A stretch of DNA of 64,000 nucleotides from Ricordea florida (taxonomy: Eukaryota > Cnidaria > Anthozoa > Corallimorpharia > Ricordeidae): contig OX453275.1 of assembly GCA_949710005.1 (NCBI GenBank), positions 29,198,718-29,262,717 of the forward strand, in the 5' to 3' direction. Shown piece by piece: positions 30,893 to 61,231 of this stretch (the first letter of the stretch is position 1; every line of letters starts with the position of its first letter). Under the pieces are notes generated by a model. It did no database searches, was not told the origin of the DNA, and saw only the letters and a program-made list of their open reading frames with translations. The position numbers and the translations under genes were made by a program.

Positions 30893-33800
30893 CTTTCACT
30901 CGTGTTTCTATAACTCGATAGAAACACGGTACATGTTTTCTATTTCTTAACTGTAAATCTTTATAGGAGTACAGTAAGCTTTGCTAGCTGCCAGACATCA
31001 TTAACAAATTTAAACTGCCCTCTTCCTAGCATGAGCAAGGAGCTCAAAGATTTCTACTAACAATATTCTTAACCAGTTTTTGACTCGAGTAATAATTTAC
31101 TATACTGATAAAAATGGATTGTGATAGATATTTCACAGTGGTATTTACCCAAAAAGCTTCGACAGCCAATGTGAGCAATCTGACTTAATACAGGCAGATA
31201 GCTTCTTAATACAAGATTCATCCAACAAGGATAGGTAAAGTGAAAGGGTATTCACAATAACACTGGTATGTGTGTGATGGTCTGGGGAACAAACAAACCT
31301 GTAAAACAGAAACAGGATGTCACACAATGAAGTCAATTTGACCTTTATGCAATAATACTGTTCATAAACTTCAGCTGACTATAAAAACATGATAAATATA
31401 GAAAGAAATCAAGCAGTTTCTTACTGAGTGCTTGTTTTTTCATGGTTCACAAGACTTGTGATTTGTGACAGAACCTTGCTCAGCTCTGTTTTCCTGTTTG
31501 TTTATAATGCAAAATGAAAAAGTAAATTATGTATACTATGCTAAAAGCAAACACTGCTTAGTAGATACACACTGTACATTAGAAATATAAACAGACTGCT
31601 CTATCAAAACACAGACAGTATATGTCAAAGTACTTTGAAATACTGTTACTAGTAAATAGGATAGTTTTGATACATCAAGATAATTGCTATTATTTCAGTA
31701 ATATTATTTCATGGCATGGGGCAATAAAAAATTATCTGTGAACCACGGATGTGATTTTATTCCGTTGACTGTAAATGTCCATTTACACTGTAAGCAGCAC
31801 TTGTAGATAAGCTGCAACCCACTTTGGAAGCCCAAATTTTTTAAAAAATTTGAAGAGAAAATAAAGTTTGAATTTTCAGTGACAAGAAAATTCCTTATTT
31901 AGAACTGGGCCATACACAAGAAAGCAAATGCTTAGTACACCAGATTTTAATAATAATAATGACCTTTATTGAAAACATTTCCACATAGTGTCTCTTCATT
32001 TTGTCAATGTGCAAATTAAGTTAAATCAATCAAATCAAATCAAATGTTGGTTTTTGGGAAGAGGGGAAAACAGGAGTACCCTGACAAAACCCTCTCGGAC
32101 CACAGTAAAAAACCAACAAACTCAGCACACATATGACGCTGGGGCCAGGAATCGAACCCGGGCCACAGTGATGGAAGGTGAGCACTCTCACCAACCCTGC
32201 TCCCCTAAATATAGGAAAAGTCACTTGATGTGTTAACCTGTGGATTGCTGGCTATGAATCCCTTCACTAATGAAAATAAAACACAGCAAACAGTAATTTG
32301 AAAAGAAAAAAAAAACATAGTTTTTAATTAATTAATTAAGAGATTTCTATGGTGCATTTTCCTAAAGCCCAAATGCACTTTACAGTGTCAAATAAATTGT
32401 AATCTGTACAGTAAAAACTTCAAATATAGCAATATAGAAAATCTAAGAATCAAAAAAGTCAAAAGTCAAAGTCCTAAAATTCGAAAAAGTCCAAAGTCTA
32501 AAAGTAGGTTTGTTGAAAAAGATAGGTCTTGTAAATCACGAGCCACAGGCTCGTGATTTACAAGCCCTTCGAGTGTTCTTCCAACATTCCAAGTTGTTTA
32601 GTACGCCAGTAAATCCAAAGAAACTGTAGTTTACTGCTTCTATAAACTAACTTTAAAAACAGAAAATGTTTCTCTTTTTTTATAGGTGTATCGGCACAAT
32701 ACCCCTGGTTTTCTACCAGTCGCATAGCATCTGAGTTATTGTATAAAATAGAATAATGATTTAAAGAGCATTCAAATTTGCAGTGTAGGTCAGTAGCAAT
32801 AGCTGGCTGATGTACGTGTCCCTAATATCACAGCTGCAGTGATATAAGACTAATTTTTAATTTATTTTTTTAATGTTAGTTTAGTGTAGGTCAGTAGCAA
32901 AAGCTGGCTGATGTACGTGTCCCTAATATCACAGCTGCAGTGATATAAGACTAATTTTTAATTTATTTTTTTAATGTTAGTTTAGTGTAGGTCAGTAGCA
33001 ATAGCTGGCTGATGTACGTGTCCCTAATATCACAGCTGCAGTGATATAAGACTAATTTTTAATTTATTTTTTTAATGTTAGTTTAGTGTAGGTCAGTAGC
33101 AATAGCTGGCTGATGTATGTGTCCCTAATATCACAGCTGCAGTGATATAAGACTAATTTTTAATTTATTTTTTTAATGTTAGTTTAGTGTAGGTCAGTAG
33201 CAATAGCTGGCTGATGTATGTGTCCTTAATATCACAGCTGCAGTGATATAAGACTAATTTTTAACTGATGCAAATTAAGGAACAGCTTAATTTTGAAGCA
33301 AATGGTCAGTTACATAGAACTAAAGCTTAAAAAAATGAATTTGTGCAAAATGGTTAATGCACTGCCCACAGCTTTTAATGCAGGTCTGGGTAGTTATCAT
33401 TAATACAGCTACATGCTGTCAGTAAATGTACATGTAAATTAGACATGAGGATACATGCAGTAAGAAGGTTTCTGGTTTCCATAGCAAAGAACTGAGGTTG
33501 ACAATTACTTTCTACTAATTATTATAGACACTGGGGCAACGTTGAGAAAACCTGAGCTTAAGACATGAAAGATAATTTGACACAAATTTATTCACTAGTC
33601 AAAAAAGTAGCATAATCTTTGAAAAATGCATACTGGGTATGTTTTCACTTCATTCTTGGAGAAACACGCAATCACTCTTCAGTTCAAAAGGTTCCAATAC
33701 AGCAGACTGTCTACAGTTACAGTTACAGAATTTTCTATCTCAGACATGCATGAATATGAATTTTTTGCTGCATCACATCAAATGCAAATTTTGACAAGAA

Positions 33801-36243
33801 AAAACAGCTGGATAAATACAAATTGAAGTCATGCCAAGTGACAGAGGTAAAGCAGTTTCCATGGCTTCGTGAATTACCAGCTGTGCTTGTGAGCTCATAC
33901 ACATGCAGATCACTAAGAGATACCACAACTATTTAATGTGCAGCCACTACTTCTCTCATAAAAGCTGAAAACAATTTTGCAAATTCAATAATATTCTTAA
34001 AATCAGTACAAACTGTAGTTAGTATAAAAATACATCTAACAAGTCAAGCTATCAATAATTATAGTAAAATAGCTGAGATAAGTCTGGTCCTGTCTTAAAT
34101 TGCATATGCAAAAGGAAGAATTAAAAGACAATGCAGAGGGAGTTCAATTGCTTTACCAAGAATATAAAAAAATTGGTAACAACAAAGTTTGATGGGTTTT
34201 AAACATGGCAGCTTGTACACTCAATACGTCTTTAGTATGCTCCTTTTCAAGGGTTTATAATAAATGATGAAAAAACCAAAGAAATTGAATTATCCATGTA
34301 CAATGTCATTTATCAAACTTTTGATGGAAAATATTAATTTATATCAGTCATAAAATGAAGTCTCATAAAGGCTTATTCAACAACAGTCATTCCAGTCTAC
34401 AAGACACCCACGATTTACAAAGAGCCACAAGGTATCAGTCGTTACTGATGTTAGAACTACGCCTTAACAGCAAATATTCCCCGAAAAGATGCTTATGCTT
34501 TTACACTTCCTTGCAGTAAAAATAACTGGCTATCCATTTTACTGTTAGCGCAAAGATAGGGACTAGTCACTAGTGACTGATGAAGAAACTACTCCTTTCT
34601 AGTATTTACAAATTGGAACAAATTAAATAGAGGACACAAATTCCTGGAAGACCTGCACAAAGGGATTGCTACAAATCATTGTGGAATATTTAGAGTTTGT
34701 CACATAAAGACCAGATAAAAATAACTTGAAAACAAGACATTCTACTCAATTGAAACTGAGTTAGTAAAGTAAGCCTCAAAACATTGACAGAGATCGGAAA
34801 GTTTTGTTTCATAAATTCATGCATTAGTTATCCATGCAATATCATTATTAAGTGTTTGTCATAACTGCAACTAAGACCTGTCTGCCAGTCCAAAATGAAA
34901 AAGTCATTAGCAGATTAGGGATTGGCTTATAGTTATCATTTGGCTACAGTGATAACTACACCATATTTTGCAAAGAGGAATAAGCATATTGGGAAGGGCA
35001 AGCTCAAGGAAGTTGTACTGCAAAATCAACAAAAAGTTGCACAAAAAAATATTTTGACCATTGCAACCTGAAACAGAGTGGTTTTCATAAAGTGGCTTTC
35101 TCCCCATGACTCTAGTTACCAGGAATTGTTGCCTTGCGAGAATCTACTTTAAAGTAAAGGAAACTGTTATATGCCTCTTACGTCTTCAACTAATATCAAT
35201 ATCTGGGTCGCCTGCCTAAGAGAATTGCTTAAAGACTAAAACGACTGCCACAGAATCTCTCGGTTAGCACTTGGCAGTATTACATGTACAGGATGTTTTT
35301 TACATGTACATACATGAAGGATGCATTACTTGGAGGCATACTAACAAATCAATAAACTGGTGCTGGGCAATAAATGCAGAAATTTGATCCAAACTTATGC
35401 TTAGATAGTTGAAAGAAAAGTGCACATTGTAAGCAGGTTGGCAATCAGGTCGGATCAATGAATTGTAACTTCATTCATTATTTCAAACCAGCATAACATC
35501 AAACTACGCTATCTCCGATGAATTAATGTATTCTTGATCAGCCGTGATTCAGTTAAGGTATTTTGAGTGAAATTGTAAACCAGGAAAATAAACATGCTAA
35601 GAATATTTAGTAGTTTGATAGCATTTGACTTTAAAAAGGTTCACTTACGATTCCGGTTCCACACCAGTGCTCTCTACAGAACTATCGGACTCAACTTGTT
35701 CCTTGGCTCTGCGTTAACAACAAAAACGAGCTCTCAAAACATGTTGAGAGATAATCTTAACACAATCTTTTATCTTATATAAACACACATAATTACATAA
35801 CCTCACGGGAGCAAAACGACGAATCTTAGTAAGGTCAGCTGTGGCGCAAGCTCGACAAGATACATTTAAAAAATTCTAATTCAATGGATGAACTCACCTC
35901 AAACTTGAGTCAAATAGAAACTTCACACAGTTAAGTATGTCTTTGTACACTTCCTGGAACACAGGAAATACCTTTATCAGTTAAGGAACGTGTTCCAAAG
36001 TTCTCTAAACTTTTATGTTACAAACCAATTCGAGTACAGCTGACTACAACGTACACAACAACAAACAGAAACCAAAACAAATTTATACACTTGGCAAAAA
36101 AGAACACAAATTTGGAGGACAACCAATTAAACGCGAAAGGGACAACTTACTAGATATTGTTTATCTTTTTCATTGCCATCCTCTGATGTAACTTTTGCGC
36201 CTTTTTTATCTCCGTTTGGAGCCGGTGAAACGACATCCGCCAT
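15125..36243 (-). CDS. PDXDC1: Pyridoxal-dependent decarboxylase domain-containing protein 1
   Basis: Exons recognised, 5' to 3': 36151-36243 (ATG), 35898-35953, 35649-35708, 31425-31493, 31149-31298, 29704-29773, 28954-29017, 28118-28148, 27847-27884, 27364-27442, 26159-26243, 25975-26023, about 25301-25377, 22876-22957, 21047-21090, 20783-20836, 20419-20542, 20032-20120, 19731-19836, 19204-19262, 18467-18585, 17929-18100, 16956-17033, 15807-15899, 15554-15656, 15125-15270 (stop). Phases agree at nearly all joins. Diagnostic blocks: YLCAQ-LGLPQSSVCK-VPCNTVFGS, PLLLVAHAG, GHTDNLGRLRELC, WLHIEG, CDSMTLNIGKWFSLP, LPLWISIQ, SPVVVFKY, GLLRQVPLVGS..NWLSP and FNLTSG. These follow human PDXDC1 (788 aa) almost end to end; this one is about 730 aa. 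The fold is a group II PLP decarboxylase; its substrate is not established. A small exon between 31149 and 29773 and another between 25301 and 22957 are probably missed, because the phases do not join there. Confidence 0.95.
16100..16668. mobile_element. MITE-like element with GTATTTACTCAA termini
   Basis: The left end ACCGTATTTACTCAAAATTA and the right end (TTGATTGAGTAAATACAGTA) are imperfect inverted repeats, with internal 'ATAAGCGCCAC' / 'GTGCCGCTTGATT' motifs. The first ten bases match the ends of the 6077-6872 element, so the two families may be related. It lies in a PDXDC1 intron. Confidence 0.55.
17570..17755. repeat. Palindromic element with hammerhead-like cores in both arms
   Basis: Arms of about 75 bp (ATCAAGAGATTCCTGTAAAG... 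and its inverted complement) flank a GC-richer centre near 17660. Each arm contains a CTGATGA...GCC.AAAACGTTT block. It lies in the PDXDC1 intron between exons 16956-17033 and 17929-18100. Confidence 0.85.
17599..17635 (-). ncRNA. Hammerhead-ribozyme-like motif (short stem III)
   Basis: On the minus strand: AACC (stem I), CTGATGA core (plus-strand 17625-17631), a U bulge then GGC-AAACA-GCC (stem II), GAA, self-complementary AACGTT (stem III), U at the cleavage position, GGTT closing stem I. The only departure from the consensus is the unpaired U at the base of stem II. The matching right arm (17671-17707, plus) has the core G changed to A and should be inactive. Confidence 0.5.
19461..19528. 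repeat. (ATT)n microsatellite
   Basis: About 60 bp of TTA/ATT trinucleotides with two ACT interruptions, plus a shorter (TAA)n at about 19346-19367; in the PDXDC1 intron between exons 19204-19262 and 19731-19836. Confidence 0.9.
21718..22320 (-). CDS. Unrecognised 200-residue ORF, same strand, inside a PDXDC1 intron
   Basis: The longest intronic ORF of the PDXDC1 locus. A plausible acceptor (TTTTGCATTCCAATAG at about 22306) would start an exon reading EEMWRIANLRHKYLNQF. Sequence features: Leu/Cys-rich helices (VVCHLMQMTCSHASNVLFSV; LDGLCDSVKIKLAECVKYLY), no signal peptide, and a basic tail KTTIRKRERCYKARKR. The composition looks like a folded helical protein, not random frame. I do not recognise the family. 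It is either a nested gene, a retrocopy, or an unprocessed alternative exon of PDXDC1 (unlikely: no counterpart in known PDXDC1). The stop lies 598 bp upstream (PDXDC1 sense) of exon 21047-21090. Confidence 0.4.
   Translation of the reverse strand: MHSNSEEMWRIANLRHKYLNQFTLHKVVCHLMQMTCSHASNVLFSVNVAQSLRWLTLANSNILDGLCDSVKIKLAECVKYLYHGKIDVLKIEQDVGDILQVHIAPTPYMNAMIFKWSEVRLLLIRLCLSKHLFYLYVTNIPVMRNGVVCVKQLHHTDANNQDWKTTIRKRERCYKARKRTCSNWEPFRINIKKILKFMQK
23905..24710 (-). other. Two same-strand ORFs in the large PDXDC1 intron; possible nested 5' exons
   Basis: Minus-strand ORFs at 24420-24710 (starts MPFPASCCC, basic SRKRKLFVYFRSR stretch) and 23905-24180 (contains SSATDELLLRTNIYILKE and WGYRIYEAVKFLMKARN) are denser in CpG and GC than the neighbouring intron, as is the DNA up to 25.1 kb. 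They could be 5' exons of the gene whose 3' exon is 21718-22320, but I could not join the phases. I recognise no domain. Confidence 0.25.
26640..27010. other. PDXDC1 intronic segment of probable repeat origin, unresolved
   Basis: This stretch is richer in GC and in GGCTGGC/GCCAGCC motifs than the surrounding intron and looks like a decayed interspersed repeat. I find no inverted ends, tRNA head or coding frame that would class it. Confidence 0.25.
28197..28622 (+). pseudogene. LINE reverse-transcriptase ORF, C-terminal fragment (zinc-knuckle end)
   Basis: A 141-codon plus-strand frame encodes CPQCLTDMHSLDHMFLHCQL (CxxC...H...C zinc-binding end of non-LTR ORF2), then SVWDLF, an ILYGIFD block, SLLIAKYFIYSYC and FDSFLTFLREKNQYT. 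This is the order seen after the RT domain of CR1/L2/RTE-type LINEs. The upstream RT domain is absent: a 5'-truncated insertion, antisense in the PDXDC1 intron just upstream of the 31-nt exon 28118-28148. Confidence 0.75.
30600..30950. repeat. Palindromic repeat with GTTTCTATAACTCGATAGAA arms
   Basis: At 30760-30945, the arm CGTGTTTCTATCGAGTTATA continues through AAACACTCGTGAAAGTTTGGGAGAA and is inverted around AAACACTCGCCTGCGGCTCGTGTT. A further, weaker copy of the terminal motif lies at 30625. It is in the PDXDC1 intron between exons 29704-29773 and 31149-31298. No coding content. Confidence 0.75.
31985..32212 (-). mobile_element. tRNA-derived SINE, family 2
   Basis: On the minus strand, a box-B-like GGCCCGGGTTCGATTCCTGG is followed by GCGTCATATGTGTGCTGAGT, GGTCCGAGAGGGTTTTGTCA and a TTTTCCCCTCTTCCCAAAAA block, and ends in a (TTTGA)n tail at 32030-32045. 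Box A is degenerate. The architecture (tRNA head, unrelated body, short A/T tail repeat) is that of a SINE, and the body differs from family 1. It sits in the largest PDXDC1 intron. Confidence 0.8.
32783..33264. repeat. Minisatellite, 101-bp unit, about 4.7 copies
   Basis: Units begin GTGTAGGTCAGTAGCAATAG at 32783, 32884, 32985, 33086 and 33187, with very few differences between units. Each unit contains the perfect palindrome ATATCACAGCTGCAGTGATA(T). In the PDXDC1 intron between exons 31425-31493 and 35649-35708. Confidence 0.95.
33265..35640. other. PDXDC1 intron without recognisable elements
   Basis: Plain AT-rich intron sequence. I see no ORF with a domain, no inverted ends and no tandem array. 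Confidence 0.5.
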
Positions 36244-37104
36244 GTTGGTAGTGAAACGAGCCACGCAGTCACTCGCAACGTCATGGCTAATATCCAGACC
36301 TCTATCGTCAGTTGAAAGATCGCGCCGAATGCCAGCAGTCCATACAAAATAGGTACGCAATACGTACATGTGTCTGCCATTTGGAAATTATTGTTGGAGA
36401 TAAGGAATGAAAAGATGACACTGTGAAGTAAATTATCAACTACAAGGTCGGTAAGGTAAATTAGATTCGAAGACCGACGTTTCGATCACTCTGACGAAGG
36501 GCTTATGCTCGAATCGTTGGTCTTTGAATCTTTTATGGTGGCTAATTTATGTTATTGATCTTGTGGTTGATAATTTACTTAAGTGTTTCACTTCCCCACC
36601 GACACTCTACACAGTTTCTCACGAAACTAAATCCCCTGTCGTTTGATGACAACATATTGTGATGAACAGGGAGCAAAAGAAAGAACATTACAGACCTGTT
36701 AACACAATAACTGAACGCAACTTTGTGTCTAATGTTTTCTAATGAGAAGGGTAATACAACATTGCTATGGTTCATTAACACATGGTTCAAAGACAGTGCT
36801 CATTGCCTGGTAAAAGGTAATTCTAAATTATGGGAGTGTGATAAAAACGATATAACTACACTACATTTTATTGTTCATTAACACAACACTTTGCATGCTT
36901 GAATTACAGTGTCTATTGCCTAGTAAAAGGTTATTGGAAATTTTGGCAGTGACAAAAACAAACAATATTACTACACTGCAATTTTATTGTTCATTAACAC
37001 AATAGTATGCATGACTGAAAGAGTTTGGCAGTGATCAAAACAATCATATCACTCAGAACACTTTTATGGTCCATTCAAACAGCAGTTAACATTCTTGAGA
37101 GTGT
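36244..37104. other. PDXDC1 5' flank with a degenerate palindromic repeat
   Basis: The first ~100 bp must hold the PDXDC1 promoter/5' UTR. At 36425-36645 is a diverged family A-type palindrome: AATTATCAACTACAAGGTCG ... inverted ...GTGGTTGATAATTT, with a central CTGACGAAGGGCTTATGCTC block and the GTTTCACTTCCCCACCGACA tail. The rest (36650-37100) contains diverged short direct repeats ('TTATTGTTCATTAACACAA', seen at about 36870 and 36980), and no gene. Confidence 0.6.
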
Positions 37105-39460: not shown

Positions 39461-40504
39461 GGCTTTTGTTTCCCCTCATGGGGCGTAAGCACAGGAGTAA
39501 CTCTGTAGCGCAGAGCTGCATATCGATCTTGAAAGCATCTTTCAAAGCCATTAAATCGGCCAGGTTGACCCGTACTTCGAAATCTGTGGCATACTGAAAC
39601 AACACCTTTCAAATTCATGAAATTAAGAGAACCTTACCTCACCTTCGAACGTTCACAGTAGAAAAACGATGCAATGCTAAGACTTCGTTTGTCCAAACGT
39701 GCCTAGCCAAACTACCACTTCGTTCGTCGAAGCGTGTGTTGCCTTCCTTCTCACGTGATCGTGACGCAATTGCTGACTCACTTCTTCGTATTCTATTGGT
39801 TCCGAATGTTGACTTTGATTTGTAATTTATTCGCAACCAATGGTAAAGATTACGATGATTCACGATTGAGTCGCGACATTCATCGAGATTTACGACAGTT
39901 TCACGACAAATGGTTACGCTTTACCCACCAGTCATGTACTAAGTCACAAAATGGACTTGCAATGGAAATCTCAGTCAAACTACGTGAATAAAATGTCACA
40001 CTTGTACTATATGAAGCAGTGATCAAAACTTCTGCAGCTCTGCATGGTGTCTGCACATTTGCATATGCAAATAGCAGACACAACAAGATGCAGAGTTTAA
40101 TTAGCAACATTAGAAAACTCAGAAGCCTCTGTATAAAAAGAATCATGCAGATTGAGAAGGGTTTTTCTTCGATAAATTTAATTTCTTTTTTAATTTTGCT
40201 GTAAAATATGTTTTTAAAGGACTCCGGAGGTTTTAAAAAATCAAACAGTTTGTGTAGCATTGTTGCTTCCTATAGTTTTCTGATTAATCTGACGTCGATG
40301 AAATTCAGATTATTTGTTTCGAGGGTATTACTGTGGCTCACAAATGTCATGCAAAACCACATTCCTTTTGCCATTTAGCGAATTTTGGGCGACTTGTTTT
40401 AGGAGCGTTTTAGCGGCATTTTAGCAACGCTTTAGCGATATTTTGGCAACTTTTTAGCGACTTTTTAAATAGCGGTTTTTCGCGAATTTTCAAACGACTT
40501 TTAA

Positions 40505-41905
40505 GGCGGTAACCGGTCAATTCGCTAACGCGTCATTTCGCTAACGTCCAATTCGCTAACGTCTTAGGTCGTTTCGTTAACGTCTAAGGTCATTTCGCTA
40601 ACGTCTCATAAATCGGTAAATTGGAAGCATGTGTAGATGGTTTACCTTGCAATATTGAGTATTAAAGTTCTTTTGCAATAAGTTTTAGTTGATTACCAGT
40701 TTCGTAGTATGTTTCGACAGATGTATTTTCCGCTGGTATGAAGTTTATGCAGTTCGTTAGCAGCTTATGTTTCTCGTCTTTCTCTTTTTTTTTTTTTGGA
40801 GCACGCCGTTATGGCGTGTCTCCAGGGAGTTTGTGGTTGCTTGGGTTTAGTATTTAAGGCTTCAAAGAGTTGCTCGATTCCTCTCGCTCGCGTTCTCCTT
40901 CCTGACGTTTATTTCATTTCATTTCATTTCTCGGTTCGGCAAGATTTCCGCACCGGTCCCTACTTCATTATGCATGCATCAGATGAATTGTTCACATGTA
41001 ACTAAAATTACAGGCGGCGGATTCCAGACCCCTACGAAAGCTGATCGCCTACGTCAAGCGACAGTGGATCGAGAATGCAGTCTTCTCGCCAAAGGACTGG
41101 AGCGTTTACCGGCAACCAATCCGCACAAACAACGACATCGAAGGATGGCATCACGCGCTCAACCGTCGAGCTGGTGGTAAAAGTAATTTGCCGTTGTATA
41201 TTCTCATCGAGCTACTACACCGTGAGGCGAAACTTACTGCTATCAGTTCCAATCATAGAATTCACAAAGATTATTAGGGTTTCGGATTTATACTATTTGC
41301 AAACTAAGTCTGACTTACAGTGCACCAAGATTATTTATAAACTAGTCTTCGGTCTTAGAGTTCGCCAACAAATTATTTGTAAATATTTCACAGGTGTAAT
41401 TATTAAAGATGTTCATCGAAACACTTGTTTCCTATTTCTGTAGTTATATATTGTATTAAAATAGAATTTTAGATAGAATATCAATAAAGACAACGACATT
41501 TTTTTATTTTTGTGCAAGTTATGTTTCGATCGGTATCAGTTTCGATCGATACAAGTCTCGTACAAAACATAGAAGTGTCATTACGTCTTTATTCCTGTAA
41601 ACTCAGGCTCGCGTAAGACTCACCTTGTCCCAGAATACACATCGGCCACTTTACGTATCCGCTGACCGTGATGTTATAAGACCGCAGTATGATGTTTACC
41701 GATATCGGCGATACTACGAAACTGGTAATCAACTGAAACTTAATGCAAAAGAACTTTAATACTCAATATTGCAAGGTAAACCATCTACACATGCTTCCAA
41801 TTTATCGAACTTACCGATTTATAAGACCTTAGCGAAACGACCTTAGACGTTAACGAAACGACCTAAGACGTTAGCGAATTGGACGTTAGCGAAATGACGC
41901 GTTAT
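40505..41905. mobile_element. Mutator-like (MULE) DNA transposon, internally deleted
   Basis: Long terminal inverted repeats at 40529-40710 and 41711-41901 (about 185 bp, over 90% identical by eye). Their outer halves consist of repeats of TTCGCTAACGTC. The inside holds the 3' part of a transposase frame (41010-41277). Copy B lacks the insertion, so it entered after the duplication or was lost there. The right end is truncated relative to the left and about 45 bp of host sequence is missing at the site, so the expected 9-bp target duplication cannot be read. Confidence 0.8.
41010..41277 (+). pseudogene. MULE transposase, C-terminal exon fragment
   Basis: Open frame reading RPLRKLIAYVKRQWIENAVF, WSVYRQPIRTNNDIEGWHHA and LNRRAGGKSNLPLYILIELL, to TAG at 41275-41277. 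RTNNxxEGWH followed by a LNRRAG-type block is the hallmark end of MULE-domain transposases in invertebrates. The frame begins after a splice-acceptor-like TTACAG. The DDE core is absent, so this copy cannot move itself. A partial copy of the 54.6-kb MITE (40938-41001) lies just upstream. Confidence 0.75.
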
Positions 41906-43809
41906 AAGCAGCTTTTTACAGACTTTTTAGTGTCTTTTGTAGCGACATTTTTTAGCGAATTTTGTAGCATGGATTTTTACGGCCATGTATGATAATGTAT
42001 GGCTATAAATGGCTGTTTTGATATATATGCCTGTTTACGTTGAACCATGACAAAAAGTCGCTTAAAGAAGTTACCATAGGAGTCGCCAAGAAGTCGCCAA
42101 AAAGACAAGTCGCTAAGAGATTCGCTACAAAAGTTGCTAAAAAGTCGCTAAAACACTGCCTGTTTACGTTGAACCATGACAAAAAGTCGCTTAAAGAAGT
42201 CACCACAAGAGTCGCCAAGAAGTCGCCAAAAAGACAAAAGTCGCTAAGAAATTCGCTACAAAAGTTGCTAAAAAGTCGTTTAAATAGGAAAAGAAACGCG
42301 TTTTTTTTGCACGGCATTTTTGAACCACTGTAAAATTAAATTCTTGCAAAGAAAAAGTTTTCTCGAAAATGAAGCACGTGAAATTTAATACCCTGCCATT
42401 TAAATCACGTGTCAAGTCCAGCTGTAAGCACAATTCGACAGTGTCGTGTAGTAATCTAGTACAGCTCTACTTTTATTGCAAAGGAACATGCCAGCCCATC
42501 CCCAGTTTTTCTTTCTTTTGTTTCTTACGTGAAACTATCGCTATGGAAAAATATCATTCGACTGTATTGTTTTAAACCCAGATCGGCATTTTGAGAATTT
42601 TCGTGAAATTTTATTACCCGACAATAGGAGTTCATTACACGGACCGGGTGATGGGCTTCTGGCGACAATGAATTCATATTTTGGACAAGTCGCGAAATTT
42701 CAACCTGACGAAATATGCCTGTTCCATTTTTCCTCAAAAATAAGTAATAAAAAGCTTTATATTACATCCTGGAGTTTCTTACTATTCTTGTAACTCAATG
42801 ATTTAGCATGTCAAAGCGATTAGTTTTCTATTTTCCCATTTACTTTCACACAGGGCTGTCGCTCAACTTGTCAAAACGGCTCCACCATTGTTGGATTAAT
42901 GGATGTTTTCCTCCATTAAGCAATTTTCTAACTCAAAAGTTATTGAGGAAACAATAACAATAGTAAGTAGGTAGGTTAGTAAGAGACTTTTGAGGAGAAA
43001 GACATGTGACAGTAAAATAAATTAGAGCAGGCCCCTGATTAGAGATAAATTTGAGGCCGTCTGACGATAAATACTAAAAACACAACATGGCTACAGTAGA
43101 ATAGTAAACTTAAAGTTTCGAATGAAAAGTGCCTAAACGAGAGAGTAAAATTAAAATCAGATTAAGTCGTTTGTGTTCATAATAAAACTGTAAAACTGTA
43201 AAAAGTGTTAAGATAAATCTAAAATAATAACAACGGTAAAAGTAACTGAATTTTCGACCGCCTTGTTCTTGAGGAGTCATTTCAGGGTTATTTATACCGT
43301 TTTTAATAACTTACACCTGGTTTAATATTTTTTAACAATTTGATTAAAGAAAGTAGTTGTGGTGTTTAGATCGGAGTAACGCGTTCATTAGGCGGGCCTA
43401 TCGTTTTAACTACACAAACAAGATCATTTTTACATCTAATCAGATGTATCTGGTGAGTAAGGAAAAACGGAGTGGTCTTATCGACAGAATCGTTAGTGGC
43501 ACTTATTATGTATTGCGTGACCTGTTTCCATGTAAACGTAACTGGGCTCTTAAAAGACACAGGCTATGACCTCATGGTCCCTAAAGTGAAAACCTAACTC
43601 AAGTGAAAACTGAGTGGTTTTAACGCACTTTTTAAATATCTTTATTTCTTAACATCTAACAACTTCATTTCTGTTATTTTTTCATAATATGTTTTTTTTA
43701 TTCTAGTTCAGTGTTGATCGTAAAGCCACTCACATGTTATGTTTGATCTGTTAAATGATTAATAAAGACGTTTCAACTAAGACTGCGGTCCATGCCTGGG
43801 TTTTGGTTG

Positions 43810-44736
43810 TCAGTCTTTTTCGGTTCTTAATAGCTTTCTTACAGCAGCTAACATCGCTCGACGAACATTTCTCATTTTCCAACAATAGATTATCGGATTC
43901 AAAGAGGAATTTAAGAACAACAGAGTTTGTGTGTAGTAAAACAATGTTCTTCTTGTAACAGTTGGACCATACAGTGTTATTGCTGTCATACTGCAAGAAT
44001 GTGGAAGATAGCAAACTAACAACAGAAGGTAAACATAGAACGCGCTAATCGCCGCTGACTTCTTGGCTCCTGGAGTTTGAGCCATTTCTCTGCCTTGAGC
44101 ACGTGCTACGAGTTTTTCTTGTCTTGTTATGGCCTTTCTATGGCGCCTCACAACAAAATAAATTTTAAGGTATATCAGTGATGTAGCTGTGAGGCAAATT
44201 AAGCCTGCAACACCATATGCCAGTACTATGATATCCGTGTCCAGCCATATCAAAGTCAGTTGTGATAACACACTCGTGGACCAAATAGCTACAATTGCTG
44301 TACCAACCCGCTTTTGAGTTACAAAATGACGGTATCTAAGGTGAAAATGAACAGCCATTAGCCTGTCCACGCCAATGGCTAAGTCATTTAAAAACGAAGC
44401 TGATGAAAGTACAGCTACAATAAGAATGAAAGCTGATGTAGTTGAACATCGGAGGTAACTGTATTTTCCTGCCAGTGTTTTCACAATTAATGCAATGTAC
44501 AAAGGTTGGCCTAACAACCCTACGGCAAGATCGGACACCGTCAGGCTGAGGAGCAAAGTTTTTAAGGGCTTTGATAATGTTGCAGCCTTTCTTAAACCAT
44601 ATATTGTCAAACTGTTAGCTGTGATGGTGGTAAAACACAACACTCCGTTAACGCAGCAGTTAACAATAAGCGTTGGACGTAGATGTTCAGTCTCCGAGAA
44701 ATGTTGAAGCGATTTGTTGCATAGTGGAGTTGCCAT
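43810..44736 (-). CDS. Rhodopsin-family (class A) GPCR, paralogue 1, intronless
   Basis: 308 residues, complete, single exon. N7 is a glycosylation site (NKS). TM1 has N41 (TITANSLTIY) and TM2 has D69 (SLTVSDLAVG). A Cys precedes TM3, and TM3 ends VDRLMAVHFH, a DRY variant. TM4 has AIWSTSVLS, TM6 has VCYLPHSC (CWxP variant), and TM7 has LNSSLNPIIYCW (NPxxY) followed by a short basic tail. It therefore has all the switches of a working plasma-membrane receptor. Small single-exon receptors with such short termini are expanded in cnidarians (melanocortin/adenosine/amine-like clades); the ligand cannot be deduced. Part of duplication copy A; its twin is at 49021-49950. Confidence 0.95.
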   Translation of the reverse strand: MATPLCNKSLQHFSETEHLRPTLIVNCCVNGVLCFTTITANSLTIYGLRKAATLSKPLKTLLLSLTVSDLAVGLLGQPLYIALIVKTLAGKYSYLRCSTTSAFILIVAVLSSASFLNDLAIGVDRLMAVHFHLRYRHFVTQKRVGTAIVAIWSTSVLSQLTLIWLDTDIIVLAYGVAGLICLTATSLIYLKIYFVVRRHRKAITRQEKLVARAQGREMAQTPGAKKSAAISAFYVYLLLLVCYLPHSCSMTAITLYGPTVTRRTLFYYTQTLLFLNSSLNPIIYCWKMRNVRRAMLAAVRKLLRTEKD

Positions 44737-45111
44737 CTTCAGTTCAAAGAGTTCACCGAATCGGGTCTCAGTTGAGTTGAATTGAGTTTCGGGTTAACAG
44801 GTTATGCGGGAAACCGCTTAGTACTCGCCTTGGTACAAGGGATGCGCAGTGTGGACTTTAAACGTACTTATGATATACCTTTTGTGGATATATTAAATTC
44901 CACTGTCGTCTGTCCAAGCTGTGACTCACATAGCGTAGAATGCCTATTGTTCTCGGGACATTTACTTACAGTTGGAAAAAGTGTATAGGTCTGCCATGAC
45001 GCTTGTCATAATATTCATCGATGCTTCGAACAAGCTGTTTTCATTGGTTGCTATGAATGCGCGACAATACTCATTACCTCATGATGGGGCGGCAAACTAA
45101 ACAATGAACTC

Positions 45112-45540
45112 AAAGTGATGAAAAATGGTAGGGTTGTGGGATGTGGCTTGAAATGACAATGTCAAAATGTAATAAGGGTACGTTAAAGCCACATATATGC
45201 GCACTGAGGCGACAGTGGTAGAAGGGATTAAACCCTGTTGCCACCAAAAAAAAAAGGATGAAAAAATTGAGCTCAAAAGCCAGCAGCCATGGACAGCTGT
45301 TTCGGCCTTGTTAATTTTTCATCACTTTGACACTCATAATGTGGGAACCTAGAGCTCATCTGCTAGCTGTGCCATGCTGATGAGGCCTAACAAGGCCGAA
45401 ACAGCTGTCCATGGCTGCTGGCTTTTGAGCTCAATTTTTTCATCCTTTTTTTTGGTAGCAACAGGGTTTAATCCCTTCTACCACTGTCGCCTCAGTGCGC
45501 ATATATGTGGCTTTAACGTACCCTTATTACATTTTGACAT
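45112..45540. mobile_element. Palindromic element containing a hammerhead ribozyme, flanked by 14-bp direct repeats
   Basis: Arms at about 45167-45310 and 45393-45539 are inverted complements (GTCAAAATGTAATAAGGGTA at the outside; AACAAGGCCGAAACAGCTGT at the inside). The sequence TAAACAATGAACTC occurs at 45098-45111 and again at 45541-45554, as if the target was duplicated on insertion. The loop side carries a complete hammerhead motif. No coding frame. Unique to the interval between the two duplication copies. Confidence 0.8.
45371..45415 (+). ncRNA. Hammerhead ribozyme, type I, minimal stem III
   Basis: Every consensus element is present. GCCATG (45371-45376) pairs with CATGGC (45410-45415) as stem I. 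The CTGATGA core is 45377-45383. Stem II is GGCC-TAACAA-GGCC (45384-45397). GAA is 45398-45400. ACAGCTGT (45401-45408) is a self-complementary stem III, and C45409 is the nucleotide 5' of the predicted cut. Hammerheads with a tiny self-complementary stem III are known from Penelope-like and related animal retroelements and act mostly as dimers. The inverted left arm retains only the GCC-GAAACAGCTGTC-CATGGC half. Confidence 0.8.
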
Positions 45541-46270
45541 AAACAATGAACTCGCCGCCTATTGTTTCTTTCTTTGTTTCACCGAACTCAACGCGCTTTT
45601 GTTATTTTTAAAAATATCGAAACAACTCACCGCACGCGTGTGTTTTTTGTTCGTTTCTCAAAAGCCAAACATCCACGCATTAACTCATTTTCGCGTAATG
45701 GATTTGCATTTGCTTTAAGGAGGTTTCGTTGTGTGGAATATGTAACACTGGAATCAAAGCTCACTTTGTTAATCTTCATTGTGTCTGCGCGAGCAAGACA
45801 ATTGTGTCGTAAATAAAACAATTCTTTCACTGTCTGCAGTTTGCGCGCGGAAGCGAAAACGAACTATAAACAACCTATTTGTTCCGTCTTAGGATGCTTT
45901 TTAACTTTCGTGTATCCAGAACAGCCGGTGAGTGAATTTAAATAATGGAATAAATCAGCTGGAACAGTAAGCTCAGTTTTAAAATTCGCGGCAATTATGA
46001 ATCATTTTACACACGAGTGGCTTTTATGAATGGGTATTGTTTTAGTCTTGGTGACCATTGTTATTCGGTCTTAGGCTTGAAACAATAGCCCACTTGCTCG
46101 AGACGCGCCATTTTCAAACGCAACTACAACTAGCAGTTTTTAAACCGAAAAGAACAGTGGTTCCCGTTGACCGATTTTTAATCTTTAAACATATTCCGGT
46201 AGAAAAAAGATAAATTTTTTATTTTCCGTTCGTGGGTTGGCGAAAATCAGCAGAACTTTTAAGAAATTTC

Positions 46271-46609
46271 CTTGAGTCAAATAGAAACTTCACACAGTTA
46301 AGTATGTCTTTGTACACTTCCTGGAACACAGGAAATACCTTTATCAGTTAAGGAACGTGTTCCAAAGTTTTCTAAACTTTTATGTTACAAACCAATTCGA
46401 GTACAGCTGACTACAACTTACACAACAACAAACAGAAACCAAACAAATTTATACACTTGGCAAAAAAGAACACAAATTTGGAGGACAACCAATTTAACGC
46501 GAAAGGGACAACTTATTAGATATTGTTTATCTTTTTCATTGCCATCCTCTGATGTAACTTTTGCGCCTTTTTTATCTCCGTTTGGAGCCGGTGAAACGAC
46601 ATCCGCCAT
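46271..46609 (-). pseudogene. Truncated PDXDC1 5' copy (exons 1-2)
   Basis: 46271-46708 repeats 35899-36341: the PDXDC1 ATG (46609), the 31-residue first exon starting MADVVSPAPNGDKK, and exon 2 up to FLFDSS. The first donor is destroyed: the GT at 36150-36149 has become AT at 46516-46515, and homology stops inside exon 2 near its 3' end. No downstream exons exist here, so it cannot make PDXDC1. Confidence 0.9.
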
Positions 46610-49020
46610 GTTGGTAGTGAAACGAGCCACGCAGTCACTCGCAACGTCATGGCTAATATCCAGACCTCTATCGTCAGTTGAAAGATCGCGCCGAATGCCA
46701 GCAGTCCATACACAAGATGCAGAGTTTAATTAGCAACATTAGAAAACTCAGAAGCCTCTGTATAAAAAGAATCATGCAGATTGAGAAGGGTTTTTCTCCG
46801 ATAAATTTAATTTCTTTTTTAATTTTGCTGTAAAATATGTTTTTAAAGGACTCCGGAGGTTTTAAAAAATCAAACAGTTTGTGTAGCATTGTTGCTTCCT
46901 ATAGTTTTCTCAGATTAATCTGACGTCGATGAAATTCAGATTATTTGTTTCGAGGGTATTACTGTGGCTCACAAATGTCGTGCAAAACCACATTCCTTTT
47001 GCCATTTAGTGACTTTTTGGGCGACTTGTTTTAGGGGCGTTTTCGCGGCATTTTAGCAACGCTTTAGCGATATTTTGGCAACTTTTTAGCGACTTTTTAA
47101 ATAGCGGTTTTTCGCGAATTTTCAAACGACTTTTAAAGCGACCTTTCAGCAACTTTCTTGACTCTTTTTCAGCGACTTTTCAAGCAACTTTTTACAGACT
47201 TTTTAGTGTCTTTTGTAGCGACTTTTTTTTAGCGAATTTTGTAGCATGGATTTTTGCGGCCACAAAGTATGATAATGTCTGGCTATAAATGGCTCTTTTG
47301 ATATATATGCCTGTTTACGTTGAACCATGACAAAAAGTCCCTTAAAGAAGTCACCACAAGAGTCGCCAAGAAGTCGCCAAAAAGACAAAAGTCGCTAAGA
47401 GATTCGCTACAAAAGTTGCTAAAAAGTCGCTAAAAGAAGTCACCACAAAAGTCGCCAAAAAGTCGCTAAAAAGACAAAAGTCGCTAAGAAATTCGCTACA
47501 AAAGTTGCTAAAAAGTCGTTTAAATAGGAAAAGAAACGCGTTGTTTTGCACGGCATTTTTGAACCACTGTAAAATTAAATTCTCGCAAAGAAAAAGTTTT
47601 CTTGAAAATGAAGCACGTGAAATTTCATACCCTGCCATTTAAATCACGTGTCAAGTCCAGCTGTAAGCACAATTCGACAGTGTCGTGTAGTAATCTAGTA
47701 CAGCTCTACTTTTATTGCGAAGGAACATGCCAGCCCATCCCCAGTTTTCCTTTCTTTTGTTTCTTACGTGAAACTATCGCCATGGAAAAATATCATTCGA
47801 CTGTACTGTTTTAAACGCAGATCAGCATTTTGAGAATTTTCGTGAAATTTTATTACCCGACAATAGGAGCTCATTACCCGGACCGGGTGATGGGCTTCTG
47901 CCGACAATGAATGCATATTTTGGACAAGTCGCGAAATTTAAATCTGACGAAATATGCCTGTTCCATTTTTCCTCAAAAATAAGTAATAAAAAGCTTTATA
48001 TTACATCCTGGGGTTTTCTTACTATTCTTGTAACTCAATGATTTAGCAAGTCAAAGTGATTAGTTTTCTATTTTCCCATTTACTTTCACACAGGACTGTC
48101 GCTCAACTTGTCAAAACTGCTCCACCATTGATGGATTAATGGATGTTTTCCTCCATTAAGCAATTTTCTAACTCAAAAGTTATTGAGGAAACAATAACAA
48201 TAGTAAGTAGGTAGGTTAGTAAGAGACTTTTGAGGAGAAAGACATGTGACAGTAAAATAAATTAGAGCAGGCCCCTGATTAGAGATAAATTTGAGGCCGT
48301 CTGACGATAAATACTAAAAACACACCATGGCTACAGTAGAATAGTAAACTTAAAGTTTCGAATGAAAAGTGCCTAAACGAGAGAGTAAAATTAAAATCAG
48401 ATTAAGTCGTTTGTGTTCATAATAAAACTGTAAAACTGTAAAAAATGTTAAGATAAATCTAAAATAATAACAACGGTAAAAGTAACTGAATTTTCGACCG
48501 CCTTGTTCTTGAGGAGTCATTTCAGGGATATTTTTACCGTTTTTAATAACTTACACCTGTTTCAATATTTTTTAACAACTTGATTAAAGAAAGTAGTTGT
48601 GGTGTTTAGATCGGAGTAACGCGTTCATTAGGCGGGCCTATCGTTTTAACTACACAAACAAGGTCATTTTTACATCTGATCAGATGTATCTGGTAAGTAA
48701 GGAAAAACGGAGTGGTCTCTTCGACAGAATCGTTAGTGGCACTTATCATGTGTTGCGTGACCTGTTTCCATGTAAACGTAACTGGGCTCTTAAAAGACAG
48801 AGGCTATGACTTCATGGTCCGTAAATGGTTTTAACGCACTTTTTAAATATCTTTATTTCTTAACATCTAACAACTTCATTTCTGTTATTTTTTCATAATA
48901 TGTTTTTTTTATCCTAGTTCAGGGTTGATCGTAAAGCCACTCACATGTTATGTCTAATCTGTTAAATGATTAATAAAGACGTTTCAACTAAGACTGCGGT
49001 CCATGCCTGGGTTTTGGTTG

Positions 49021-49950
49021 TCAGTCTTTTTCGGTTCTTAATAGCTTCCTTACAGCAGCTAACATCGCTCGACGAACATTTCTCATTTTCCAACAATAGA
49101 TTATCGGATTCAAAGAGGAATTTAAGAACAACAGAGTTTGTGTGTAGTAAAACAATGTTCTTCTTGTAACAGTTGGACCGTACAGTGTTATTGCTGTCAT
49201 ACTGCAAGAATGTGGAAGATAGCAAACTAACAACAGAAGGTAAACATAGAACGCGCTAATCGCCGCTGACTTCTTGGCTCCTGGAGTTTGAGCCCGCATT
49301 TCTCTGCCTTGAGCACGTGCTACGAGTTTTTCTTGTCTTGTTATGGCCTTTCTATGGCGCCTCACAACAAAATAAATTTTAAGGTATATCAGTGATGTAG
49401 CTGTGAGGCAAATTAAGCCGGCAACACCATATGCCAGTACTATGATATCCGTGTCCAGCCATATCAAAGTCAGTTGTGATAACACACTCGTGGACCAAAT
49501 AGCTGCAACTGCTATACCAACCCGCTTTTGAGTTACAAAATGACGGTACCTAAGGTGAAAATGAACAGCCATTAGCCTGTCCACGCCAATGGCTAAGTCA
49601 TTTAAAAACGAAGCTGATGAAAGTATAGCTACAATAAGAATGAAAGCTGATGTAGTTGAACATCGTGGGTAACTGTATTTTCCTGCCAGTGTTTTCACAA
49701 TTAATGCAATGTACAAAGGTTGGCCTAACAACCCTACGGCAAGATCGGACACCGTCAGGCTGAGGAGCAAAGTTTTTAAGGGCTTTGATAATGTTGCAGC
49801 CTTTCTTAAACCATATATTGTCAAACTGTTAGCTGTGATGGTGGTAAAACACAACACTCCGTTAACGCAGCAGTTAACAATAAGCGTTGAACGTAGATGT
49901 TCAGTCTCCGAGAAATGTTGAAGCGATTTGTTGCATAGTGGAGTTGCCAT
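49021..49950 (-). CDS. Rhodopsin-family (class A) GPCR, paralogue 2, intronless
   Basis: 309 residues, complete, single exon, with the same key motifs as 43810-44736 (N41, D69, VDRLMAV, CYLPHSC, NPIIY). Differences from paralogue 1 are few: P21S, L to P just before the TM3 Cys, V to I in TM3, three changes in TM4 (RVGTAIVAIW to RVGIAVAAIW), and an added Arg in the third intracellular loop (REMRAQTPG). Both reading frames are intact, so the duplicate is either young or under constraint. The third-loop insertion and TM4 changes could alter G-protein coupling, but this is only inference. Confidence 0.95.
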   Translation of the reverse strand: MATPLCNKSLQHFSETEHLRSTLIVNCCVNGVLCFTTITANSLTIYGLRKAATLSKPLKTLLLSLTVSDLAVGLLGQPLYIALIVKTLAGKYSYPRCSTTSAFILIVAILSSASFLNDLAIGVDRLMAVHFHLRYRHFVTQKRVGIAVAAIWSTSVLSQLTLIWLDTDIIVLAYGVAGLICLTATSLIYLKIYFVVRRHRKAITRQEKLVARAQGREMRAQTPGAKKSAAISAFYVYLLLLVCYLPHSCSMTAITLYGPTVTRRTLFYYTQTLLFLNSSLNPIIYCWKMRNVRRAMLAAVRKLLRTEKD

Positions 49951-51489
49951 CTTCAGTTCAAAGAGTTCACCGAATCGGGTCTCAGTTGAGTTGAATTGAG
50001 TTTCGAGTTAACAGGTTATGGAAACCGCTTAATACTCGCCTTGGTACAAAGGATGCGCAGTGTGAATTTAAAACGTACTTATGATATACCTTTTGTGGAT
50101 ATATTAAATTCCACTCTTGTTTGTCCGAGCTGTGACTCAGTTATGGAATCTTCATACAAACGCAGTTGCCCTTGAAGTGTCAAAGGCCTTAATAGGTCGT
50201 TTCTCTGGGTAAGCAAGTGCGTCGACAACGGCTGTGGTTTTACGCGGTGACAGGTAAAAAAAACCATGAAGCGCTACTGAATTTGAGATATTCGACTTGA
50301 GGTTATGCAATCAGCGAGGCTTACTAAAGATACTGCTTGATTGACCGGTGTGACTGAATTTCCCTTTTCCATTAGTTTGACAGAATTTGAGCGGAAGCGC
50401 CAGTGACGTCAGGATGATTGAAGGTCCTCGTGCCCTTAAATGATCTTTCCTGAATGTTGCTGTCTCCTTTTTGACCACGACGTCATAGTAAAAAGGTTTT
50501 TTTTAAGTCTGACGAGACCCGACAAAACAGAAATCCCTTGCAGCTAGATTTCGATTTGGACTTAGCAATAGCAATTATAATTTTGTCTCTTCGTATGTAG
50601 GGAATAGATTACCTCAATGCCAAAACTTGTATCTAACGAGAGATCAACATGCGTTGATAAATTGGAACGCTGGTAACAGAGAGATCTCCATTGATATGCC
50701 GCAATTTTGCCATAAGGTCGGTGCCAATGTAAGTGTCTTATACTCAAAATCAGATATGATTTTGGAGAATATTAGACGAGTTAGGTGTCCAGTGGTCCCC
50801 AGCGTTACGGATAGAACTGACAACTAATGGTGAAATATCTTGCCGGCCTTGCTGGAAATTTTTGTAGCTTTTCGCGAAATTCTCTCAACAGGTACTCAGT
50901 GAAATTGGTCGTGTTTAGACTCACGTCGGAGTTGTCCACAGAACTTGGAAATTAAACTTTAAATTTATTTTTTAAAACAGGAAAACGAAGGAATTACAAA
51001 CAAACACAGAACACGCACATATATTTAAGCGTGATTATATAGCTTTTCCGTGCTTTTGTAGAGGGAGGACCAGAGCGGGCATACATGTTCAAATCTCTCT
51101 GAACACACTCTCTCTTATATATATAACGCGCTCCGTTCACGCCTTTCTGTTTTAACTAGGGCGTGTTTGGGATGCGTGTTTTATATGCTTGCATGATCAT
51201 GAAATATGGGTAATAATTGGTCTAGCGGTGAGTAAATAGAGCATTTATAGACCAAGAAAGTCGATCCTGGTCCATTTATGTACTGCACAAGGGCAATAAC
51301 TAACCATGTCGACTGAATGAGCACTATCAAGAGGCTCATTACCCTGGCACTATCAATATATAAAATCTATTATATGCCTAATATATAATGCAAGAAACGA
51401 AACATTTATAATTCAGAGAAGCACGCGGGAACCGCTAGTCCAGCCAATCATAATACAGGATTTGATCGGAGTAATTTTGAACCACAAGA

Positions 51490-51730
51490 AACTGGGTAAA
51501 TCAAACGAGTTGATTAAGTAAGTTATACCACCGTAAGGTAAAAGGGAGGTGCTGACGTTTCGAGCGTTAGCCCTTCGTCGGAGCGAATGTCTAACGCTCG
51601 AAACGTCAGCACCTCCCTTTTACCTTACGGTGGTATAACTTACTTAATCAACTCGTTTGATTTACCCAGTTTGTTGTGTTTCAATTTCCCACCGACGCAG
51701 TACCAGTTTCTTTAGAAACTATCCCCACAA
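51490..51730. repeat. Palindrome family A, copy 2, with tail
   Basis: Arms 51490-51583 and 51590-51671 match the 9361-9550 element nearly base for base (GGGTAAATCAAACGAGTTGA, TATACCACCGTAAGGTAAAA, CTGACGTTTCGAGCGTTAGC), but the right arm has lost the ACGAAGGGC part of its centre. The GTTTCAATTTCCCACCGACG...TATCCCCACAATA tail is shared too. Confidence 0.9.
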
Positions 51731-53003
51731 TATTTGAGTAATTTTGGTCCGGGTTAGGGAGGGAGTGTTGCTTTACGTGGGGATGTACCGCTGGGGCCCT
51801 GGAACCCTTAGCCTGTAGCAGAACTATTTAAGCTTATTTTGCCCCCCCCCCTCCACATCCTTCACAGCGGTATATGCCTATATAGTCAATATGTGACAGT
51901 ACACCCCCCCCCCCACCTCAAGGAATCTGGTCTTGCGAAGCTAGTCATATAATATATTTGTCATTTGATTTATTTCCGCAAAATAACGTGATTTGTCAGT
52001 GTTGCGCGGCACGCAGCTCCAGTGCAACACCCGGTATCATTGGTCAATCGAAACAACAGAACACATTCATCTTATGAGGCAACGCCACTAACCCTGAAAA
52101 CAAACTGAGCCGAAATTAAAGGTTATAACGATCTGCAAGATATTCCGCATCGTCTCACAAAGGGCTATCGCCTCTCTTTTACCATAGTTAGTAGTAGTCC
52201 GCTCTACTAACTATGCTTTTACCTTGCTGTGCTACAAATTAAATCAGGAGCGATTCGCTCCCGAATACATTCATTAGCAACTCATATTATGCACCCATTT
52301 ATTCGTGTATTTTCATTCCTCACCCAAGCAACAACAGTTTCTTTAGGAACTAACGCCATTCATTACTTACTAAGATCCTTCAGCTCCTTTTTTATTGAGT
52401 CAAGCGATAAGAAAGTCATTCAACGGGAAGTTCATCCCTATAATTTTCATCCGGTGCATAAACCAAGAAGGTTGTAGGTAGTGGTTTCCGCTAAAATTCC
52501 GAAATAAACTGTAGAAAAGAAGTTGGTGCGTGAAGATATTGAAATGAAGACTTTTCATGTTGCTGATCCAGCAAAATTTGGAGGGTGTACTGGAATAGGC
52601 ACTAAAACTGAGTTTTCTCATTGGTGCCTTGAGCATCACTGGATTAGCCCTGTTGATCTTGAATGAGGTCATTATTTGCCTTTATTACTTGGCTCTGACT
52701 CACAAGGACTGTGAACTACCAAATATGAAGATCTAGACCGGCATCTAGACCGATCTTATTGTAACAGTTGTTCTCAAAACGTTACAAACAAAGAATATGA
52801 AAAAAATTAGCTTGTACCTGTTAACAACACTAAATGGAAGAATCAGTATCTCTTCACGGGGAACCAGGTAAAGAAAACGACCAAACGCTGGAAAATTTGA
52901 GTCATGTCGAGGAAGCTACGAGCAAAGATGAATGCGAGATTGAGAAATTTATATTTGTTCATTTAATTTCTTGTTTGGCAAAATAATAAACATCTTATTA
53001 CTA

Positions 53004-61182: not shown

Positions 61183-61231
<49 letters not shown>

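Follow-up and report, generated by a model that had tools for sequence, protein, structure and literature searches.

Genomic context of the element

The sequence analysed in this study, hereafter the window, is a 64-kb stretch of the Ricordea florida genome (C4:29198718-29262717; 537.8 Mb in 48 contigs). A duplicated block is present in it (42302-44928 and 47541-50139), the copies of which are 94.7% alike over 3033 aligned positions, with most of the long stretches at 97-98%, and each copy contains a rhodopsin-family GPCR frame. The duplicated GPCR blocks of the preliminary description were recovered, with two frames that both contain 7tm_1; over their last 932 aligned bases the blocks are 97% alike. 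Smaller duplicated pieces are found nearby (35904-36349 with 46271-46715, and 40083-40508 with 46712-47140). The GPCR block duplication ends at 44928, before the element described below, and no empty insertion site is therefore available within the window.

Other repeats were also found in the window. Inverted copies of a repeat, 86% alike and 56 kb apart (61109-61313 and 4721-4925), include a tRNA-like sequence (Rfam tRNA, 30.7 bits) to which ARAGORN assigned no anticodon; this repeat is perhaps a tRNA-derived SINE. Two near-perfect palindromes about 42 kb apart (9350-9613 and 51466-51735) are 93-95% alike and perhaps MITE-like. The Rfam miRNA match on the palindrome at 9.4 kb is far under its gathering score, and the miRNA matches in the window, of which those compared fall on palindromes, were taken as chance. 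A tandem repeat with a 101-bp period occupies 32681-33286, some of its copies being 99% alike.

Structure of the insertion

The element is a 428-bp insertion (45112-45539) between exact 14-bp direct repeats (Table 1). The palindromic element with 14-bp flanking direct repeats that had been described earlier is therefore real, and its inverted repeats comprise 95 nt at 99%, 66 nt at 100% and 17 nt at 100% identity. The whole mapped element is accounted for by two arms, an inverted arm V and a forward arm F. The 5' half of the ribozyme lies in the forward arm only and CTGATGA is missing from the inverted arm, which corrects the first reading of the element. The outer ends of the arms form a P1/P2 pair, P1 and P2 being the two recurrent end sites defined below, and at the P2 end the next two template bases, GA, are common to the target.

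Table 1. Coordinates of the insertion and its parts in the window, and of direct tandem copies elsewhere in the genome (marked by contig).
Feature	Position	Strand	Remark
Left target-site duplication, TAAACAATGAACTC	45098..45111	+	exact 14-bp copy at both element ends
Inverted arm V, 202 nt, unit ~240 round to 182	45112..45313	-	outer end P2, inner end within hammerhead
Outer end at P2, minus strand, ATTTTTCATCACTTT	45112..45126	-	
Hammerhead 3' half only	45269..45313	-	3' side of stem II, stem III, cut site, 3' side of extended stem I
Forward arm F, 226 nt, unit 166 round to ~132	45314..45539	+	complete ribozyme
Extended stem I round hammerhead, internal loops	45352..45432	+	sequence and circular fold
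Type I hammerhead ribozyme	45371..45415	+	predicted cut after C45409
Outer end at P1, TACATTTTGACA	45528..45539	+	
Right target-site duplication, TAAACAATGAACTC	45540..45553	+	exact 14-bp copy
Direct tandem, period 258 bp	C5:24223971 and 24224229		
Direct tandem, period 258 bp	C14:7021184 and 7021442		
Direct tandem, period 259 bp	C3:12933813 and 12934072		
Direct tandem, period 250 bp	C16:10114088, 10114338 and 10114588		

The arms overlap in unit coordinates at both ends. The end of V overlaps the start of F by 15 nt (17 when the two bases shared with the target are counted), and the end of F falls inside V with an overlap of 152-154 nt, in which there is one substitution and a T-run of 10 versus 8. 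These overlaps imply that the source was circular or tandem, and a linear monomer is ruled out. Closing the arms on each other gives a unit of 261 nt, or 259 nt with the shorter T-run, at 44% GC. The two arms differ at one of 160 compared positions and have six minority variants in common. Judging from this single difference, against a median of 6.3% between insertions, the window copy is recent.

In the window unit both P1 and P2 carry TTTGACA (starting at u126 and u178), and both are preceded by ACCCT and, a few bases on, CATTTT (45520-45539 on the plus strand; 45112-45134 on the minus strand). This stretch is a possible recognition motif for the reverse transcriptase.

The hammerhead motif

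The complete hammerhead core with pairable stems reported earlier was borne out by the sequence, by the descriptor scan and by the Rfam match. All of the core (CTGATGA, GAA and C) is in place. Stem I has 6 bp (GCCATG/CATGGC), stem II has 5 bp with a loop of 4 nt, and stem III has 2 bp closed by the tetraloop AGCU. Stem III would be lengthened to 8 bp when two copies pair, because ACAGCTGT is self-complementary, as had also been noted. Two extra helices (GCTAGC/GCTGGC and GAGCTC/GAGCTC) are possible in an extended stem I, and both are drawn in the circular fold.

The best covariance match in the Rfam cmscan was Hammerhead_HH9 (RF02275) with 36.7 bits (E 1.2e-5 in the 64-kb window and 1.4e-7 in 701 bases). 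The covariance search proposed in the preliminary description was therefore positive in the expectation value but not in the score, which is below the HH9 gathering score of 52, and for this reason the motif is absent from a default Rfam scan. The HH9 scores were likewise below the gathering score in all 16 of the genome matches listed (58 candidates scored). When both strands of the 64 kb were searched with a structural descriptor, this hammerhead was the single motif found, while any descriptor motif occurred at 0.043 per dinucleotide shuffle and those with at least four pairs in stem II and at least six in stem I numbered seven in 3382 shuffles. A chance match, in favour of which the Rfam score under the cut-off could be cited, can practically be discounted given the E value, the rarity of comparably strong motifs in shuffled windows and the 465 core copies in the genome.

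A second type I hammerhead, with stem II GTTC/GAAC and the same stem III ACAGCTGT, was found at three places (L182, L183 and L184; 1521 on +, + and -, respectively). It sits in a longer repeat of >1 kb, which gave no match of at least 80 bits to the retrozyme unit. An inverted repeat of about 250 bp is held by L182 and L183, and a DDE_Tnp_4 transposase frame lies near L184. A looser, hammerhead-like core pattern that keeps stem II of the window hammerhead, CTGATGAGGCC...GGCCGAAAC, matched at least 120 viral contigs (viral_contigs) and one bacterial contig.

The retrozyme family in the genome

The strict ribozyme core was found at 465 places in the genome (218 + 247), with none for the reversed control. 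The possibility that all other copies lack the core, which would have spoken against the preliminary description, is thereby excluded, and the search for tandem or multicopy units that it proposed was successful on both counts: direct tandem arrays are present, mostly with periods of 258-259 bp, in agreement with the unit predicted from the window alone. With arm F as the query, 69 matches were obtained in the 40 scored of 1548 first-look candidates, direct tandems included. A pattern of 22 bases from the unit had no match in viral_contigs. The pattern ACCCTACCATTTTTCATCA, taken as a candidate for a tail that a LINE might have in common with the element, has 445 occurrences.

The element has a type I hammerhead, a unit within the range of about 170-400 nt, a GC content below 50%, direct tandems and target duplications longer than 4 bp, and it is a metazoan-type non-LTR retrozyme, an already known kind. 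Penelope-like elements encode a reverse transcriptase, often with a GIY-YIG nuclease. Since 428 bp is too short for a reverse transcriptase gene, a Penelope-like nature of the element itself is not supported. Of the two life cycles suggested earlier, retrozyme-like or Penelope-like, the former is upheld by the copy number, the tandem arrays, the type I hammerhead and the duplications of 9-17 bp, while the latter is at odds with the length of the element and with the tetraloop in helix III.

Arms, ends and duplications in 74 insertions

Of the 465 core places, 100 were listed and 84 were sampled, comprising all those listed on C1 (42) and C2 (34) and the first eight on C3. They collapse to 74 insertions, the window insertion not among them. 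Second places of insertions already counted (L154, L157, L167, L168, L178 and four on C2) were dropped, as was L196, which has the same flank as L195 and was regarded as a segmental duplicate. L236 and L237 also have common flanks and probably go back to a single insertion that was duplicated; both were kept in the 74. Segments were mapped on the unit of the window itself, and their median identity to it is 92%.

Thirty-five of the insertions are head-to-head pairs with the minus arm on the left and the plus arm on the right, 38 are solo and one is complex; a tail-to-tail arrangement was found in none of the 74. Because an intact ribozyme core was the criterion for sampling, long and two-armed insertions are favoured, and the proportion of head-to-head pairs could be overestimated by as much as a factor of two, with a floor of about 31% obtained by halving the pair count. 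In the best-match sample, 7 of 29 insertions were paired, or 8 with the 31-nt arm of L144. One insertion counted as head-to-head (L205, about 1265-1498) contains a nested inversion, with a strict core on the plus strand and, 71 bases further on, another on the minus strand.

The outer ends are confined largely to two sites. Among 108 outer ends, 41 are at P1 (u120-145), 55 at P2 (u163-186) and 12 were assigned to neither, so that 96 fall at two fixed sites, the ranges of which were set after the ends had been inspected. None of the 108 lies within 10 nt of the ribozyme cut. Both ends could be assigned in 27 pairs, of which 26 are P1/P2 and a single one (L126) is P2/P2; in the remaining 8 of the 35 head-to-head pairs one end was assigned to neither site. 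One insertion scored as solo (L163) has a short inverted P2 end with a score of 13 (99% point of the null, 9), and it may be a second P2/P2 pair, which would bring the same-site pairs to 2 of 28. Another (L179), the outer end of which is at neither site, has a hidden-arm score of 10, likewise higher than the null.

An exact flanking duplication of 9-17 bp was found in 36 of the 74 insertions, compared with 1.65% for mismatched flanks; the duplication of L160 is an internal artefact and 35 of 74 is the cleaner count. The commonest length is 13 bp (nine cases), followed by 14 and 9 bp (seven each). When the arms are added up, the 73 solo or paired insertions each cover between 173 and 992 nt, and a length of more than 275 nt in a single direction is reached by 32 of 116 single segments.

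Possible mode of integration

The window copy is probably a recent non-LTR retrozyme insertion that was made by twin-primed reverse transcription of circular RNA at the target. As twin priming predicts, the 5' ends point inward and one target duplication surrounds both arms, in the window as well as in 21 of the 35 pairs. From the anatomy, the family, the ends, the pairing rule and the duplications, which are observed directly, we infer an active ribozyme, a circular rather than multimeric template and the action of a reverse transcriptase. The type I hammerhead would cleave the retrozyme RNA into units of about 259-261 nt, which, to judge by the published retrozymes of coral, mussel and axolotl, would be circularised. 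A LINE-like or Penelope-like reverse transcriptase would then act in trans, nicking the target, and priming on the RNA would be internal, with two fixed start sites to choose from, P1 (...TTACATTTTGAC) and P2 (...CCATTTTTCATCACTTTGA). Priming from both nicked target strands, with P1 used by one strand and P2 by the other, would account for about a quarter to a half of the insertions. The resulting cDNAs, running in opposite genomic directions, would be joined head to head to give a palindrome with a duplication of mostly 13-14 bp, the outer ends corresponding to cDNA starts and the inner ends to variable stops. The palindrome is accordingly read as an imprint of the integration mode, and the activity supplied in trans may come from a Penelope-like enzyme.

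The same outcome could be reached if priming of the first and of the second strand differed and each had its own site, in which case the rule of one P1 and one P2 would be silent on the circle. The two sites do differ in sequence, and solo insertions favour P2 over P1 (22 against 12, with 4 ends at neither). However, solos with P1 only exist, and none of these 12 has a hidden P2 arm scoring above 8 (95% point of the null; arms shorter than about 9 nt would escape). Strand-specific sites are thus somewhat unlikely, though they are the strongest of the alternatives.

It is less probable still that the same retrozyme was twin-primed on an uncleaved linear multimer derived from a tandem array. Tandem arrays are present in the genome, and segments longer than one unit as well as arms crossing the cut site fit a multimer and a circle equally. 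A multimer, however, would offer several P1 and P2 sites, and same-site pairs are rare: 1 in 27 has a probability of 1e-7 under independent site choice and 2.6e-4 for a dimer with two of each site, and 2 in 28, with L163 included, of 9e-7 and 1.3e-3, respectively. Moreover, P1 and P2 each also work alone, as the solo ends show. The low number of same-site pairs agrees with a template on which P1 and P2 each occur once, i.e., a monomeric circle. The end of V lies within 20 nt of the start of F in 14 of 26 pairs against 7.6 expected (P 0.0065), under a null of uniform 5' ends that ignores copy choice, and this adjacency may be a modest sign of template continuity. A cluster of 5' ends at u186-212 (27 of 101 against 10.4 expected) was considered as proof of a circle and rejected, because the copies had been selected for an intact ribozyme, which is a partial confounder.

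Two independent insertions side by side, or a tandem array inverted later, are very improbable, although the family is multicopy. In those 21 pairs both arms are enclosed by a single duplication of at least 9 bp, the 35 head-to-head cases are matched by no tail-to-tail one, and the arms of an insertion have minority variants in common. The arms were compared in 24 of the 35 pairs and the window, each with at least 60 shared unit positions. Across these 25 pairs, minority variants are common to both arms at 72 of 4205 positions (1.71%), 3.7 times the permuted mean of 0.46% (maximum 0.84% in 300 permutations). In 19 of the 25 pairs the two arms resemble each other more than they do the median other insertion, but in only three do they resemble each other more than they do the nearest other copy, since later mutation blurs most pairs. 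The latter count is as expected for old copies, and one template is unproven by it.

A palindromic DNA transposon (MITE or foldback element) carrying a hammerhead by chance was rejected as extremely improbable: the long near-perfect inverted repeats, the 428-bp non-coding length and the flanking direct repeats would suit it, but the outer ends are different sequences (P1 versus P2) in place of matching termini, the inner boundaries vary among copies, the duplication length is variable (9-17 bp), and 38 of 74 insertions, or about half, were scored without an inverted arm.

With twin priming on circular RNA as the preferred reading, a narrower version of it can be put forward tentatively. It is quite possible, if short of an even chance, that a monomeric circle is the direct template and that its two priming sites engage both nicked strands, so that palindromes arise regularly and silence their own ribozymes. 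In the fold prediction for the locus transcript, which has no tertiary contacts in the model, the hammerhead costs 45.9 kcal/mol relative to the long hairpin, against 6.0 kcal/mol in the circle or in the forward arm alone. In a transcript of both arms, pairing between the inverted arm and the ribozyme's 3' half is possible and would block it, and according to this model the window copy and similar head-to-head copies should be poor ribozymes when read through.

Fixed internal starts at a distance from the ribozyme cut, lengths other than whole multiples of the unit and pairs with one of each site are marks in DNA by which template models can be discriminated, and they can be counted in any retrozyme-bearing genome. 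They also carry a warning that some palindromic repeats classed as MITEs may be retrozyme insertions. No earlier report of this insertion mode was found in the literature searched; most subscription papers lay outside its reach, and absence is not thereby proven.

Comparison with known systems

The element shares with the metazoan non-LTR retrozymes, as far as these are covered by the available text of PMC7229834, the type I hammerhead, a stem III of 2 bp with a tetraloop as in invertebrates, short tandem units, low GC, target duplications longer than 4 bp and a multicopy state. The coral retrozymes given there have units of 225 and 245 bp, compared with 259-261 nt in R. florida. Metazoan retrozymes form circles, for which a role as templates, primed at the target or in some other way, has been proposed (Cervera and de la Pena 2020, PMC7229834). 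Priming on circular RNA, as a means of spreading in animal genomes, is a hypothesis there, and the insertion ends in R. florida bear on it. Inverted, inversion or head-to-head copies are not mentioned in the main text of that paper, and in the available text of PMC7761336 inversion of the elements is likewise not mentioned, 'inverted' occurring in one reference title only. In Penelope-like elements, according to the same text, the non-conserved part of helix III is usually missing from the minimal hammerheads, in contrast to the window hammerhead with its tetraloop. The hammerhead repeats of Nematostella have large LINE-like target duplications, of 15 bp there and mostly 13-14 bp here, and the portion of PMC4918200 available has no mention of head-to-head insertions or fixed internal priming sites.

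The closest parallel for the mode of insertion is the twin-primed, 5'-inverted insertion of human L1, with which the present element has the inverted segment and the target duplication in common (PMC2912911, consulted in part, as for all figures in this paragraph). Further points of resemblance are the peak of target duplications at 14-16 bp and the microhomology at the junctions of the inverted L1 insertions. For L1 the template is a linear RNA primed at its 3' end, whereas in the R. florida element the starts lie at two internal sites. Inversions were found in 639 of 2068 species-specific L1 insertions and in about 10% of all human L1 copies, in a single Alu case and in 4 of 477 SVA insertions. 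Compared with these figures, the inverted share of 35 of 74 in R. florida belongs to a non-coding element of only 260 nt, i.e., a short element with far more inversions than are given there for Alu and SVA.
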